Both the position numbers and the translations under genes were made by a program. DNA of 64,000 nt from assembly GCA_947175605.1 (NCBI GenBank), contig CAMWNH010000005.1, positions 1-64,000 of the forward strand, in the 5' to 3' direction. This stretch comes from an uncultured Porphyromonadaceae bacterium. Its GTDB lineage: Bacteria; Bacteroidota; Bacteroidia; Bacteroidales; Muribaculaceae. Under the pieces are notes generated by a model. The model saw only the letters and a list, made by a program, of their open reading frames with translations. It ran no database searches and was not told the origin of the DNA. This document shows positions 11,563 to 55,773 of this stretch, piece by piece (positions within the stretch are counted from its first letter, which is position 1; each line of letters begins with the position of its first letter).

Positions 11563-12180
11563 TCAGTTCAGAATCTCGACATCATCGAAATCCACCTTAC
11601 ATTTTCCGAAGGCAAAGAAGCCGAAACCGTTGGACGTTATAGGGACATACTTACAAAGCAGCGCCTGTACGTCATTGACGCGGAACTCAAGCTCGCCACC
11701 CATATAAGTGACCTGTATATCGAGAGCGGTATTCTTCTTGCCCTTCTGCAACTTGAACTGATTCTTCTGCTGGCCTGTGATCTTGCCTTCCTTCATTTTA
11801 TAGAGCCAAGCACAATCGCCCTTGATCATAAACACGATGCAGTTCATGTCGTCGATATAATCAAGGATTATGCCGAACATCTTCTTGCCCTCGAACTTCT
11901 CAAGGATTGCCGTGCAGCTGAGATTAAACCCCTTAGCGGGATCCATCGGGAGGAAAGAATGAGTGGCCACGCTGCCAACCATATCCGCAAGTGTGATATT
12001 GCCATTGTCCGATTTACTTTCAAGGCGCATCACACCATCAATGATGTATGCCTTGCCCAGATCGGCAGAATACTCGGTCCACTGCCAGGAATTGGAATCA
12101 AATGTCTCTTTTACCTGCGAGAAGGCAGCAGAGGCAGCCAACATCACAAAAGTCATTAAACAAAAAATTCTATTTTTCAT
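11563..12180 (-). CDS. Secreted LamG/DUF1080-like protein
   Basis: Signal peptide MKNRIFCLMTFVMLAASAAFSQ, jelly-roll-like FGFFAFGKCKVDFDDVEIL ending. Confidence 0.5.
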   Translation of the reverse strand: MKNRIFCLMTFVMLAASAAFSQVKETFDSNSWQWTEYSADLGKAYIIDGVMRLESKSDNGNITLADMVGSVATHSFLPMDPAKGFNLSCTAILEKFEGKKMFGIILDYIDDMNCIVFMIKGDCAWLYKMKEGKITGQQKNQFKLQKGKKNTALDIQVTYMGGELEFRVNDVQALLCKYVPITSNGFGFFAFGKCKVDFDDVEILN

Positions 12181-12203
12181 ATCTTCAGGAGTTTTTGAAT
12201 AGT

Positions 12204-12944
12204 TCATTTGTCGCCCAGACGGGTCTGGAATTCGCTCATAAAAGTTTCAAATTCCTTAGCCACACGGGTGGTCTCGATGAAAGCATCTTCGTTGGCGCGC
12301 GACTGCATGGGTGCAATTTCAGCGGAAAGCTTCACCTGAAACGTGAGGTCTCCGCCTATATTGGACTCTTTGACAGTGACTCTGTGGCGAAGCGTTTTTC
12401 CCGCTTCAATGTAATTCTTATACAGCCATGGAGTCTGAATAAACCCGGAGGTCATATCGGACGTCATAATCTCATTGAAATACTTAAGGAGCACACTGTG
12501 AGCCATTTTCCACGCATTCTCAGTGTTGCGGGCACCGCTACGCTTATCTTCGGTGTAAAGGTTCTTGTTCACTTTCACGGTGAAAAAATTGTTGGCAACG
12601 GAAGATTCAGCGGTCTGCTGTAGAAGCATGTCTTTTTTCAGCTTGATTTCCACAGTCTTTCGTCCGTCATTCCCATAGATCCGGGTTGTGAGGGTTTCAT
12701 AGCCCGGAGCGGAGCATTCCAGAGAAATGAAGTCTTTTTTCTTTATCAATACCTTGGCTGAACCCTCACCATAATAAGAGCCGTTGACCTTAATCGTGGC
12801 ATCCGAAGGAATCACGACTATATTGATTTCCTTTTCGCGGCCAAAGAATTTATTTATCTTTCCCGTTACTTCATCCAACTGGGCATTCGAGTTGAAAACA
12901 CTCGTAATGAAAACCGCGACAAGGAGGAAAATTATTTTCTTCAT
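12204..12944 (-). CDS. Secreted PEGA-like domain protein (paralogue A)
   Basis: VVIPSDATIKVNGSYYGEGSAKVLIKKKDFISLECSAPGYETLTTRIYGNDGRKTVEIKLKKDM. Confidence 0.6.
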   Translation of the reverse strand: MKKIIFLLVAVFITSVFNSNAQLDEVTGKINKFFGREKEINIVVIPSDATIKVNGSYYGEGSAKVLIKKKDFISLECSAPGYETLTTRIYGNDGRKTVEIKLKKDMLLQQTAESSVANNFFTVKVNKNLYTEDKRSGARNTENAWKMAHSVLLKYFNEIMTSDMTSGFIQTPWLYKNYIEAGKTLRHRVTVKESNIGGDLTFQVKLSAEIAPMQSRANEDAFIETTRVAKEFETFMSEFQTRLGDK

Positions 12945-12949
12945 GGCGC

Positions 12950-13636
12950 TTATTTTTCACCAAGACGTGACTGGAATTCACTGATCAGAGTTTCAAACTC
13001 CTTCATAATTCTATTGGTCTCCAGAAAAGATTCCTCGCGGCTACGGCCCTGTATGGGAGCCATTTCAGAAGCCATCTTTATCTGGAAAGTGAGATCGCCA
13101 CCGATATTGGATTCCTTGATGGTTACGCGGGTGCGGAGCGTCTTGCCGGCTTCCACGTAATTCTTATAAAGCCAGGGGGTCTGGATGAAGCCCGAGGCGG
13201 CGTCGGAGGTCATTATTTCATCGAAGTACTTCAGGAGCACGCTGTGAGCCATTTTCCAGGCGTTCTCCGAATTGCGCTTACCGGTCTTGGGATCATCCGT
13301 ATAAAGCGATTTATTGACCTTAACAGAGAAGAAGTTATTGGCGATGGACGATTCCGTGGTCTGCTTAAGGAGCATATCTTCCTTAAGCTTGATTTCAATA
13401 GTTTTACGTTCATCGTTGCCGTAGATACGGGTATTGAGTGTTTCATACCCCGGACAGCTGCACTCAAGCGAGACAAAATCGTTCTTCTTGATTTTGAGAG
13501 TAGCGCTTCCTTCTCCGTAATAGGAACCATTCACTTTAATGGTAGCATCTGAAGGAATCACAACGACTTTAATGTCCTTTGCCCACACTCCGGCTGACAC
13601 AATCAGAGCCAAAAGGACAAACAAAATTCTTTTCAT
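12950..13636 (-). CDS. Secreted PEGA-like domain protein (paralogue B)
   Basis: VVIPSDATIKVNGSYYGEGSATLKIKKNDFVSLECSCPGYETLNTRIYGNDERKTIEIKLKEDM; close tandem paralogue of the downstream gene. Confidence 0.6.
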   Translation of the reverse strand: MKRILFVLLALIVSAGVWAKDIKVVVIPSDATIKVNGSYYGEGSATLKIKKNDFVSLECSCPGYETLNTRIYGNDERKTIEIKLKEDMLLKQTTESSIANNFFSVKVNKSLYTDDPKTGKRNSENAWKMAHSVLLKYFDEIMTSDAASGFIQTPWLYKNYVEAGKTLRTRVTIKESNIGGDLTFQIKMASEMAPIQGRSREESFLETNRIMKEFETLISEFQSRLGEK

Positions 13637-51659: not shown

Positions 51660-54600
51660 TTATTTTTTTTGCTCTTTATAGCCCTCGAAAGCCTGCTCAA
51701 GGAACTCGGAAATCCCATCGTAGTTTGAATCCATCAACCGTACACCAAGTGGTCCGGGAGGGAAAACTTTGTCTACAATCTCTCCCGGCGTCACACGTCC
51801 ATCCTTATTTACGAGCGGAAGGAAGATGATGCGTCGCTGCTTTGAAGATGTCGACTTCATTACCTTCTCAAACTCCTCGAGCGATTGGTAAATATCCCAG
51901 CTATCGAACTGAAGCACATAAAAGACTCCCGAAAGTCCCGAATCCTGAAACGAACCGGCAGTTTCTACTACGCCCATTACCTGCGTTGCATTGGATTTCT
52001 TACCCAGTGTATTCCCAAAGGCGCGCTCGCTTTTGGAATCCACATATTTCCCTCCATCCCATCGGAAATATTTAGTATCCGCCTTCCGGCCATAATCATC
52101 ATAGGCCATCTCAATACGGCTGACTTCACTCATAGCCATTTCCTTGTTCACAGGTTGGCCGTCGGGACCAATATAGTCAATTCGTTCAACGAGATTTCTG
52201 TCGTTATATGTTGTGTTTTCCCTATGCCATCCCAACGCACGTACAGACACGGGCTTGTCTTTCGTATCATACGTAGCCGTAGAAATCGCCCGGTTCTTGT
52301 CGTCGTACGTCTTTCGTATAAGCGCATAGCCGTTACCGGCATCCATAAGTTTTCCTTTTGCGTCGTAATATCTTGTTTCTATATTATTCCCGTGGGAGTC
52401 GTAATCCACCTCCATACGCGCGTATCGTTCCGTCATGCCAATTGTCTGTCCAATCTTGGGAACACTATCCTCGTCAAGCGATACACGTTCTACGAACTGC
52501 CCGACATTGTTGTATCTGAACGCAGCGCTGTATATGAAATCCCCGGAGGCGGAATATTCCGTAAAACGGCTCATTCGGCCCAACTTGTCGTAGGAAATTA
52601 TCGTCTTGCTCCCCGAGCCGTAGTCAACCGGTTTTCTATATTTATCCAGATACTCCAGTCGAATAAGTTTTCGTCTTTCGTCGAAGTCATGCTGTTCGTA
52701 CATATAAGGCCTCACGGTATCCGTAGCCTTATAAAACGCAGTCTCCTTCAGTAGTCCATGCTCATCGAACGTGCACCTTAGCATGCTTCCGGACACAGAA
52801 TTTATATCACGTTGATAGTCGTGTGGATACATTTTATCGTCGTAGAAACTATATTCCACGGCATTCCCCTTGCCGTCCCAGCTCCAGCGTCCTACAGCAT
52901 ATTGATAGACCGTCCTCGGGTGCATCAATTTGCCGTCGCTTGCGTAGCGACGCTCCTCAATGAGAAGTCCGCGCATATTATACTCCTTCTCATATCTATG
53001 CACATCATCACCATTCACGGCGGGACTTCCGTCGGCACTAAAGAAAGCATTCAAAATCATTTTTCCCCTTTCGTCATAGGCCACGGTGTCCCTATGGTAC
53101 AAACCCTTGAAGAGCCCCGGCTTACCATCCGCGAGAAAATACCGGTGGCTAACCGGACGTCTATATTCATCCATGCGGGGTTGCACCAAATGATACCCGC
53201 CCTTACAATTTATCGGCTCACCGGATTTTCCAAAGAAAGCGATCTCTGTAATATTTCCTCCGGAACCATAAGTATACGAAATACTTGCCGCATAGCTATC
53301 TTTATCCAACACCGGGAGAGAATCCTTGTCAAAATAAGCTTCTCTGATCATGCGTCCTTTATCATCGAATTCGCGCCGGCGAACGGCCCACCATTCCGGG
53401 CCCGTCATCAGCTTTCCTTCCTTATCCACATACCTCTTTTCCACCTGCTGTCCGCGCTCTGAGTAGCTTGCTTTTTCACCAAATCTACCCTCCACAAACA
53501 CAGGAGCGTCCTTATCGTCATAATACGATATTCCGACCACATTTCCTTTGGCATCATACGCTCGCCGGATAACCGAAAACCCGCCACTCTGCATAGTGAG
53601 ATTTCCATCCGGGTCAAAGAACCTTTTTTCTATCTCATTACCCCTACTGTCATATTTATAATTTACGCCTGCGTGCCCCCCGGCTAGTCTCACATTCTCG
53701 CCTCTTTGGTTAAGGAAATACATCGAAATACACCTGTGATACTTATCATATACATAACAGATGGTTGAATAGCTATTTTTCTGGCTGTCAGCTATCTTTC
53801 CGTCGGCGCCCAGAAAATCTATTCGAGTAACATCGCCATGGTCGTCATATTCATACCTCTCTCCAAAGTTTCCTTTTTTATGGTGATAGGCCGGCGCTCC
53901 GTCTGTTCCATAATATCTCATTTCCGTAGCCTGTCCTGCCGAGTTATAACCAAAGGTCATTACCGAATAGATTGCATCCTCCAAGGCAGGTTCTCCGGAC
54001 ACATCGAAATATGAAACACGCACAGCTTTTCCTTGATGGTTATACTCAATCTCTCTCCGATGCCATCCTGATTTCGAAACCACCGGCTCTCCGTTCAAGC
54101 CAAAACAGCTCACGCTCTTCTCCTGTCCTTCATCGGTATAATCATACGTAGCCGTATGCACATATTCTTCACTCAGCATCGGACGTCCCGAAAGGTCATA
54201 ATAGCTCTTCTTAACTCCTCTGTAATATTCATTACAATCCACCACCATTTCGGCAACTCCAAGATTGCCGTAAGTCGGGACGCCGGCTGCGTTAAAGAAA
54301 TTCACCACAATCCTCGATGGTTCTTGTTTGTATTTCACGGTAGCCACCCCACGATAGTCTTCAGTCGGACCGCCCGAAATATCGAGATAAGTGATGCCGG
54401 TCACACGTCCTACATCATTTCGGGTAAAGCTCATTCCATAGAACCCGTTGTTATCCGAAGTCAGGCTCACCGAAAGGTCGTCGTCGTTGTTTGAATGGAA
54501 GGTCATTTTTTCTACCATTCCCCTCTTGTCTCTTTCCAGATGTATGCGCTTTATTTTCGAGTGGATTTTGGTCGCATCTTTTTCCGTACTGCTTCCTACT

Positions 54601-55646
54601 GCTAAAGAAGCCGACAGATAGCCCGCGCTTTCCTCAATCTCTCCACCGGTTATATCGTATATCGCTGCCGCATTCCCTTCAATATCATCCTTCACCGTAT
54701 ACCTCAGGCGCACTCGTTCCTGATCATCCTTATTAATAATCTCAGCGAGTTTCCCATCTTGATAACGGAATTCTTGAACAGGGAAGAACATGACATATCG
54801 GTCCGGACGGTCTTTGTCTACATTACCGTTAGCCGCGACATATTCAACTTTGTCCAGCCTCCAGCGGAGCGCTCCTTCCTCGCCAAGGGGTATTCGCGAA
54901 TATGAAAAACGGAAACTCCTACCCGCATCGGCCATCTTGCTTTTATCTATCCTGTCAATACCCTCCGGAACTCCGAAAACCTCAGCATAATCCAGATAAT
55001 ATTCCGTCCGCAGTCGCTTGTATTCGTAAACACACCATATCCCCGCAAACACAAGAGCCATGAGAATAGCAGCAATGATACGCCTGCGCCTCTCACGCCT
55101 CTTATGTCTTTGCCATAGGGTATCGAATTTAACGCCCAACATAGTGGCTATTATATCTATCAGAGCACGCTTACGTCCCTGCGCAACAAGATTTATTCCA
55201 CGGAGCTCGCGATTACGACTGAGACTACGCAGAGCCGCCGGGAAACATTCTGTGTCAGCATTACCCGAATTGGGCTCCCCTGCAACAATTACCGGAATAA
55301 TCTTAGCCTCCTTACCCTGCTCTATGAAAGTTGCAACCTCGTCGTTCACCCACTTCGAGGATGCTCCGCTCGGTGAGCATATCACAATGAGGTATTGTGA
55401 ATCAGCAAGATTAGTTTTCAGCGACTCGCTCAGCACCGTACCGCTTAAGTCTTGCTTGTACCAGAAAATAGGACGAAGATACTTGCGTTTTGATCCTGCC
55501 GACGACACGCCCGAATCCGAGGCTACGGACGTCGGAATACGATAATTTTCAAGACGGGTATGAAGCCACTTTACAATCTTCTCATCTATACTCGAATAAC
55601 TTATAAAGGCGTAAAATTTCTTGTTGGTCTCAGTCGGCAATTTCAT
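51660..55646 (-). CDS. TIR-domain transmembrane protein with ~25 YD-like repeats and C-terminal PDZ-like domain
   Basis: KKFYAFISYSSIDEKIVKWLHTRLENYRIP...ASSKWVNDEVATFIEQ (TIR); RRERRRRIIAAILMALVFAGIWCVYEYKR (basic + TM); repeated YYDxxGxPv...Y.YddxG; C-terminal VMGVVETAGSFQDSGLSGVFYVLQFDSWDIYQSLEEFEKV. Confidence 0.85.
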   Translation of the reverse strand: MKLPTETNKKFYAFISYSSIDEKIVKWLHTRLENYRIPTSVASDSGVSSAGSKRKYLRPIFWYKQDLSGTVLSESLKTNLADSQYLIVICSPSGASSKWVNDEVATFIEQGKEAKIIPVIVAGEPNSGNADTECFPAALRSLSRNRELRGINLVAQGRKRALIDIIATMLGVKFDTLWQRHKRRERRRRIIAAILMALVFAGIWCVYEYKRLRTEYYLDYAEVFGVPEGIDRIDKSKMADAGRSFRFSYSRIPLGEEGALRWRLDKVEYVAANGNVDKDRPDRYVMFFPVQEFRYQDGKLAEIINKDDQERVRLRYTVKDDIEGNAAAIYDITGGEIEESAGYLSASLAVGSSTEKDATKIHSKIKRIHLERDKRGMVEKMTFHSNNDDDLSVSLTSDNNGFYGMSFTRNDVGRVTGITYLDISGGPTEDYRGVATVKYKQEPSRIVVNFFNAAGVPTYGNLGVAEMVVDCNEYYRGVKKSYYDLSGRPMLSEEYVHTATYDYTDEGQEKSVSCFGLNGEPVVSKSGWHRREIEYNHQGKAVRVSYFDVSGEPALEDAIYSVMTFGYNSAGQATEMRYYGTDGAPAYHHKKGNFGERYEYDDHGDVTRIDFLGADGKIADSQKNSYSTICYVYDKYHRCISMYFLNQRGENVRLAGGHAGVNYKYDSRGNEIEKRFFDPDGNLTMQSGGFSVIRRAYDAKGNVVGISYYDDKDAPVFVEGRFGEKASYSERGQQVEKRYVDKEGKLMTGPEWWAVRRREFDDKGRMIREAYFDKDSLPVLDKDSYAASISYTYGSGGNITEIAFFGKSGEPINCKGGYHLVQPRMDEYRRPVSHRYFLADGKPGLFKGLYHRDTVAYDERGKMILNAFFSADGSPAVNGDDVHRYEKEYNMRGLLIEERRYASDGKLMHPRTVYQYAVGRWSWDGKGNAVEYSFYDDKMYPHDYQRDINSVSGSMLRCTFDEHGLLKETAFYKATDTVRPYMYEQHDFDERRKLIRLEYLDKYRKPVDYGSGSKTIISYDKLGRMSRFTEYSASGDFIYSAAFRYNNVGQFVERVSLDEDSVPKIGQTIGMTERYARMEVDYDSHGNNIETRYYDAKGKLMDAGNGYALIRKTYDDKNRAISTATYDTKDKPVSVRALGWHRENTTYNDRNLVERIDYIGPDGQPVNKEMAMSEVSRIEMAYDDYGRKADTKYFRWDGGKYVDSKSERAFGNTLGKKSNATQVMGVVETAGSFQDSGLSGVFYVLQFDSWDIYQSLEEFEKVMKSTSSKQRRIIFLPLVNKDGRVTPGEIVDKVFPPGPLGVRLMDSNYDGISEFLEQAFEGYKEQKK

Positions 55647-55665
55647 ATGTAAGCATATCTTTCTG

Positions 55666-55673
55666 CAAAAATA
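55666..55673 (-). promoter_or_regulatory. -7 box TATTTTTG of the TIR gene
   Basis: TAnnTTTG match 19 nt upstream of ATG (55646). Confidence 0.55.
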
Positions 55674-55727
55674 GCAAAATTTTTTCACTGCCCTTTATTA
55701 GGGTGCAGGTTTTTACCGATTTTTTTG

Positions 55728-55735
55728 TACCTTTG
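55728..55735 (+). promoter_or_regulatory. -7 box TACCTTTG of ilvA
   Basis: TAnnTTTG match 38 nt upstream of ATG 55774. Confidence 0.55.
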
Positions 55736-55773
55736 CATTATTAGTATCACAATCAATTTGTCATATCACGCAC

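Follow-up and report, generated by a model that had tools for sequence, protein, structure and literature searches.

A candidate membrane TIR receptor with a YD/Rhs-type repeat ectodomain shared with receptor kinases in a Muribaculaceae bacterium

A lone gene in the genome of an uncultured Muribaculaceae bacterium encodes a protein that is well supported as a membrane TIR receptor, with an N-terminal TIR domain, a single transmembrane (TM) helix and a large repeat array. The reading that we lean towards, with reserve, is a one-gene envelope receptor in which the YD/Rhs-type ectodomain would gate a NADase/cADPR signal of the cytosolic TIR domain. The main new points come from relatives of the gene: TIR and kinase heads alternate on one and the same ectodomain, and the TIR genes are associated with genes for RyR-domain (PF02026) proteins.

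Results

Gene and locus

The window (the whole stretch of 64,000 nucleotides that was analysed) holds the gene on its minus strand, and translation reproduced the 1328-aa open reading frame of the initial annotation. Its features, with the evidence for each, are as follows (related loci are given below by L numbers).

51660..55646, minus strand: whole gene, TIR-TM-juxtamembrane-YD/Rhs array-C-terminal module (ORF call, 1328 aa)
55122..55619, minus strand: TIR domain, about residues 10-175 (Pfam, AlphaFold model, Foldseek)
55338..55340, minus strand: codon of E103, at the position of the catalytic Glu of TIR NADases (SxWVNxE; invariant in 26 aligned TIRs)
55080..55109, minus strand: basic stretch RHKRRERRRR, residues 180-189 (sequence)
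55023..55079, minus strand: single TM helix, residues 190-208 (hydropathy; long helix 174-213 in the model)
54312..55022, minus strand: juxtamembrane domain, residues 209-445, common with kinase-headed proteins (HMM)
52047..54311, minus strand: YD/Rhs-type array, about residues 446-1200, unit of 32 aa (autocorrelation, model, PDB profile, Foldseek)
51663..51983, minus strand: C-terminal PDZ-like module, residues 1222-1328 (conserved; ends a TPR protein in L036)
55647..55773, no strand: gap to the divergent ilvA, likely with a promoter (sequence; promoter predictions at chance level)

The gene is richer in AT than its surroundings, as had been proposed, with a GC content of 47% versus 57% in the remaining window and a GC3 of 0.49, the lowest among the 41 long ORFs of the window (median 0.67). 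No other gene accompanies it between zapB-zapA-rny and ilvA. The 127-bp gap that separates it from the divergently oriented ilvA makes a promoter of its own plausible, although promoter sites are predicted there at chance level. The zapB-zapA-rny run is conserved and its junction with ilvA is specific to the lineage: all 22 genomes of the same genus in which both genes were detected have zapB and ilvA on separate contigs. The proposed insertion of the gene and a rearrangement are indistinguishable here, and no flanking repeats, RNA genes or tRNAs marking an inserted element were found at the window locus. The gene's own genome holds no second copy of the ectodomain. Another atypical patch in the window comprises three adjoining minus-strand ORFs at 11563-13636 (GC 45-46%, low GC3). 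Elsewhere in the genome, contig C1 carries a second TIR-TM gene (L057:9236-10339, 367 aa) with a short carboxypeptidase-regulatory-like C-terminus, and on contig C70 (L190) a 483-aa frame matches TIR_2; on visual inspection, the ORF beside it resembles SIR2.

TIR domain and catalytic glutamate

The assignment of a TIR domain is upheld by three lines of evidence. The protein matches TIR_2 (E=9.7e-12) and ThsB_TIR (6e-8), both above the curated Pfam cut-off; the AlphaFold2 model of residues 1-242 has a pLDDT of 85; and the top PDB matches of this model in Foldseek are TIR structures throughout (among them TIR-1, SARM1, RUN1, AbTir and SPARTA), with C. elegans TIR-1, SARM1, RUN1 and AbTir in the lead. 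Structure prediction thus recovers the TIR fold, together with a long helix at residues 174-213 that covers the TM segment. The catalytic Glu of TIR NADases, located in the alpha-C motif, is present as E103 within SxWVNxE and shows no variation across the 26 aligned TIRs; by analogy with SARM1-type TIRs, E103 would play a catalytic role. Among homologues, identity to the window protein is 33-50% in the TIR domain versus 17-29% in the ectodomain, as expected if the outer part varies faster.

Membrane helix and topology

Helix 190-208 has a mean Kyte-Doolittle hydropathy of 2.2 and is immediately preceded by RHKRRERRRR, and no second stretch above 1.6 on this scale occurs in the 1328-aa protein. 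The Arg-rich stretch and the single TM helix of the initial annotation are therefore borne out by sequence, hydropathy and the modelled helix. TIR-headed homologues show a strong excess of K/R on the N-terminal side of the helix; in kinase-headed homologues this excess is weak. The elements of the Toll-like layout suggested earlier (TIR, Arg-rich stretch, one TM helix, repeat ectodomain) are all present; their orientation is read from the positive flank, which would place the TIR domain in the cytosol and the array outside the inner membrane. The density of O-glycosylation motifs was above expectation in both halves of the protein and is thus uninformative on topology.

Repeat array and C-terminal module

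The giant repeat array is confirmed by its periodicity, its modelled structure and its relatives. The autocorrelation has its peak at a lag of 32 residues (z=4.9), its harmonics falling at 64, 96 and 128, and the array is modelled as consecutive two-stranded beta-hairpin repeats with a pLDDT of 78. A profile of 31 ectodomains matches Rhs proteins, Tse5 and a teneurin-like protein in the PDB, the best match being an Rhs protein at 4e-18, and Foldseek with the array model returns Rhs cores (at 5e-33), teneurins (at about 1e-23) and also Tc-toxin B/C shells. TM-scores are low (about 0.1-0.4), so that these matches speak for a common hairpin pattern and not for a common overall curvature. The Pfam RHS_repeat model scores below its cut-off in the window gene and above it in L041. 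At L112:465-5549, 3.4 kb away from a TIR gene, an nSTAND1 NTPase of 1694 aa has the same YD-type repeats; this protein looks cytoplasmic, so such arrays need not always be extracellular.

The last part of the protein, a module of about 105 aa that also terminates the TPR protein of L036, is conserved, but the PDZ-like fold proposed for it finds no match among Pfam, NCBIfam and PDB profiles.

One ectodomain on TIR and kinase heads

The search of 149 genomes from the window's GTDB family yielded many ORFs that match the window protein only from about residue 178 on, and their N-termini are Ser/Thr protein kinases (Pkinase at 1e-43 to 1e-55 in the three kinase-headed proteins scanned). Kinase-headed proteins are matched, at about 4e-19 to 3.5e-60, by an HMM trained on the juxtamembrane domain of TIR-headed proteins, a result that indicates homology beyond generic repeats. 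The module bears a Ser/Thr kinase head at 11 related loci and a TIR head at about 20. PP2C and FHA genes each occur at all 11 of the kinase loci, which form two clusters (6 + 5), and a second kinase is present in the listed examples. In other TIR-TM proteins the ectodomain is of the WD40 type or a short carboxypeptidase-regulatory-like one. As judged from these sequence comparisons, the TM helix, juxtamembrane domain and repeats are a swappable module that also forms the outside portion of receptor kinases. That receptor kinases share one TM + ectodomain module with the window protein makes its earlier description as a sensor much more likely.

A genome scan with the alignment gave about 19 TIR + ectodomain loci, which lie mostly in Bacteroidales, some of them in MAGs titled Clostridia, a title that may be wrong. 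The window gene has no relatives in the phages or viral contigs searched, and plasmid matches to the protein cover the TIR part only; a phage or viral origin was rejected on these grounds. A recurrent island at the TIR-YD genes of L044, L088, L090 and L097 comprises a sigma-70-like factor, a PrsW protease and an M48 peptidase, along with zinc-ribbon proteins and RyR domains. A series of TIR-like ORFs lies upstream of the TIR-YD gene in L090 (L090:1847-8004; one Pfam-confirmed, two TIR stretches), and a Prevotella MAG has four TIR genes within 12 kb, plus an RyR gene (L117:3102-15468).

The kinase-headed relatives raise the alternative, which we hold to be possible yet less probable than the NADase/cADPR reading, that the protein is a signalling receptor for the envelope or for cell contact whose output, like theirs, is regulatory and not suicidal. 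Its module is common with kinases that adjoin PP2C and FHA genes, sigma-70-like, PrsW and M48 peptidase genes accompany some of the TIR loci, and the array fold matches that of teneurins, whose shells serve cell contact in animals. However, regulators of the sigma-70-like, PrsW and M48 types are absent from the flanks of the window gene, and the known outputs of bacterial TIR domains are mostly defensive.

Association of TIR genes with RyR-domain genes

RyR-domain ORFs were found at 18/58 TIR loci (one genome counted twice) versus 0/11 kinase loci, frequently on the same strand and less than 100 bp apart. Among the TIR + YD loci, 7 of about 20 have an RyR gene (L044, L088, L090, L091, L094, L096 and L097). 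Across genomes, co-occurrence of TIR-TM and RyR genes was 16/19 vs 14/130 in the family (p=8e-11), 11/17 vs 25/376 in the order (p=7e-9) and 9/14 vs 25/365 in the order minus the gene's own family (p=2e-7), in tests that ignore phylogeny, with an order sample that covers many families. The window TIR belongs to a supported clade (100/97) with eight members, and four of these have an RyR gene within 6 kb, at distances of 13 bp (L091), 35 bp (L101), 47 bp (L044) and 3.8 kb (L102).

The RyR neighbours are proteins of about 96 aa, proteins combining C39-like and RyR domains, and membrane proteins, some with RCK/TrkA_N domains. Phage RyR-domain proteins are reported to bind or cleave 2'/3'cADPR via H75, W78, H100 and D117 (2026 preprint, PMC13232231). 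About half of the RyR neighbours conserve these four ligand residues with their exact spacing, and the H..W pair is retained in most of the rest. Gut bacterial TIRs have been found to make cADPR variants (PMC9092222). Together, the invariant catalytic-type Glu and the clade's RyR association lend indirect support to NADase activity or signalling by the window TIR, and a NADase/cADPR output is likely for the window receptor. Its own genome (98% complete) yielded no RyR domain in a search that was positive in 30 relatives, and a reader of the signal would accordingly be deduced from relatives only.

In Kineobactrum sediminis, a named, non-MAG strain, L122:7116-12249 is a three-gene run that looks like a TIR/RyR effector operon: a membrane RyR + TrkA_N gene, a TIR-TM-TPR gene (5 bp gap) and a CBASS-type phospholipase gene (10 bp gap).

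As a special case of the envelope-receptor explanation, the window protein might be an anti-phage receptor, its ectodomain detecting phage adsorption or envelope damage and its TIR domain depleting NAD+ in abortive infection, without a downstream reader. We regard this as unlikely, somewhat more so than a regulatory output. Many bacterial TIR proteins do function in defence, the gene is alone, atypical in GC3 and located in a genome without detectable RyR, and its distant TIR-TM relative in L122 sits between RyR-TrkA_N and CBASS-type phospholipase genes. The initial annotation had named the protein a candidate sensor/defence receptor, but the PADLOC match of the window gene is weak, no defence gene adjoins it, relatives in phages or viral contigs were absent, and the kinase-headed relatives resemble regulatory operons; a defence role is no more than possible.

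That the TIR domain acts as a scaffold only, without enzymatic activity, appears improbable: the TIR domains of animal TLRs are mostly adaptors, but the catalytic-type Glu is the same in all 26 aligned TIRs and the RyR association suggests a nucleotide product. Least credible is that the protein is not a receptor but an Rhs-type polymorphic toxin or an exported protein. The array is Rhs-like by sequence and fold, but the searches matched neither an Rhs core-domain model nor any toxin domain known from C-termini, the enzyme domain lies at the N-terminus ahead of the TM helix, and the same module carries kinases.

Discussion

Under the envelope-receptor reading that we lean towards, the YD/Rhs shell would lie beyond the inner membrane and sense or bind a target in the envelope or on the surface of the cell, and the signal would pass via the juxtamembrane domain and the TM helix to bring the cytosolic TIR domains together. 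The clustered TIRs would then split NAD+, and the ADP-ribose product of this cleavage would most likely be a cyclic isomer of ADPR. RyR-domain proteins are the probable partners that bind this product, respond to it or erase it in related systems; in the window genome, with no detectable RyR, there may be another reader, or NAD+ loss itself may be the output. For the window receptor we infer the membrane orientation, the NADase activity, the cyclic product, the ligand and the output.

The proposed receptor resembles several known systems in part. Like animal Toll-like receptors, it would have a TIR domain and a large repeat ectodomain on opposite sides of one TM helix, but its TIR domain is N-terminal (the reversed order), its repeats are YD/Rhs rather than LRR, and it retains the catalytic-type Glu; the likeness of the whole layout need not mean shared ancestry. 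Its relatives with a PknB-like kinase on the same module, and with PP2C/FHA genes nearby, recall the PASTA-type receptor kinases (Stk1/PknB), whereas the window protein has a TIR domain instead of a kinase and a YD/Rhs array instead of PASTA repeats. The TIR domain is akin to that of Thoeris ThsB in its ThsB_TIR match and probable NAD+ chemistry, yet it is membrane-bound with an ectodomain; no ThsA lies beside the window gene, whose neighbours are zapB, zapA, rny and ilvA, and PADLOC gave no Thoeris match. Teneurins have their N-terminus inside and their YD shell outside. With them and with Rhs cores the window protein has the YD-type hairpin array in common, but it lacks the Rhs core/toxin end, would carry a TIR domain inside and reaches low overall TM-scores. 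The chromosomal relatives of RyR-domain proteins (RyDEP family) adjoin close TIR relatives of the window gene; reported RyDEP proteins are phage counter-defence, whereas the RyR neighbours seen here are bacterial and some are membrane proteins with RCK/TrkA_N-type domains. In the open-access literature searched, we found no description of transmembrane TIR-YD receptors or of bacterial TIR-RyR gene pairs, in agreement with the earlier view of the protein as undescribed, though such agreement does not prove the absence of an earlier description.

More broadly, and tentatively, these proteins may form a receptor class in which TIR and kinase heads alternate on an Rhs/teneurin-like ectodomain and whose TIR branch would signal via cADPR isomers, with RyR-domain proteins, in part RCK-type channels, as the readers. 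If so, prokaryotes would have a layout akin to Toll/receptor-kinase immunity as well as to ryanodine-receptor signalling, and the window gene would represent a bacterial Toll-like receptor layout with NAD+ loss or cADPR as its output. One sensor module is seen on both TIR and kinase heads, an exchange comparable to that among the TLRs and receptor kinases of animals and plants. The TIR-RyR association gives the RyR domain a bacterial setting, and it suggests readers or erasers of TIR-made signals beyond Thoeris.
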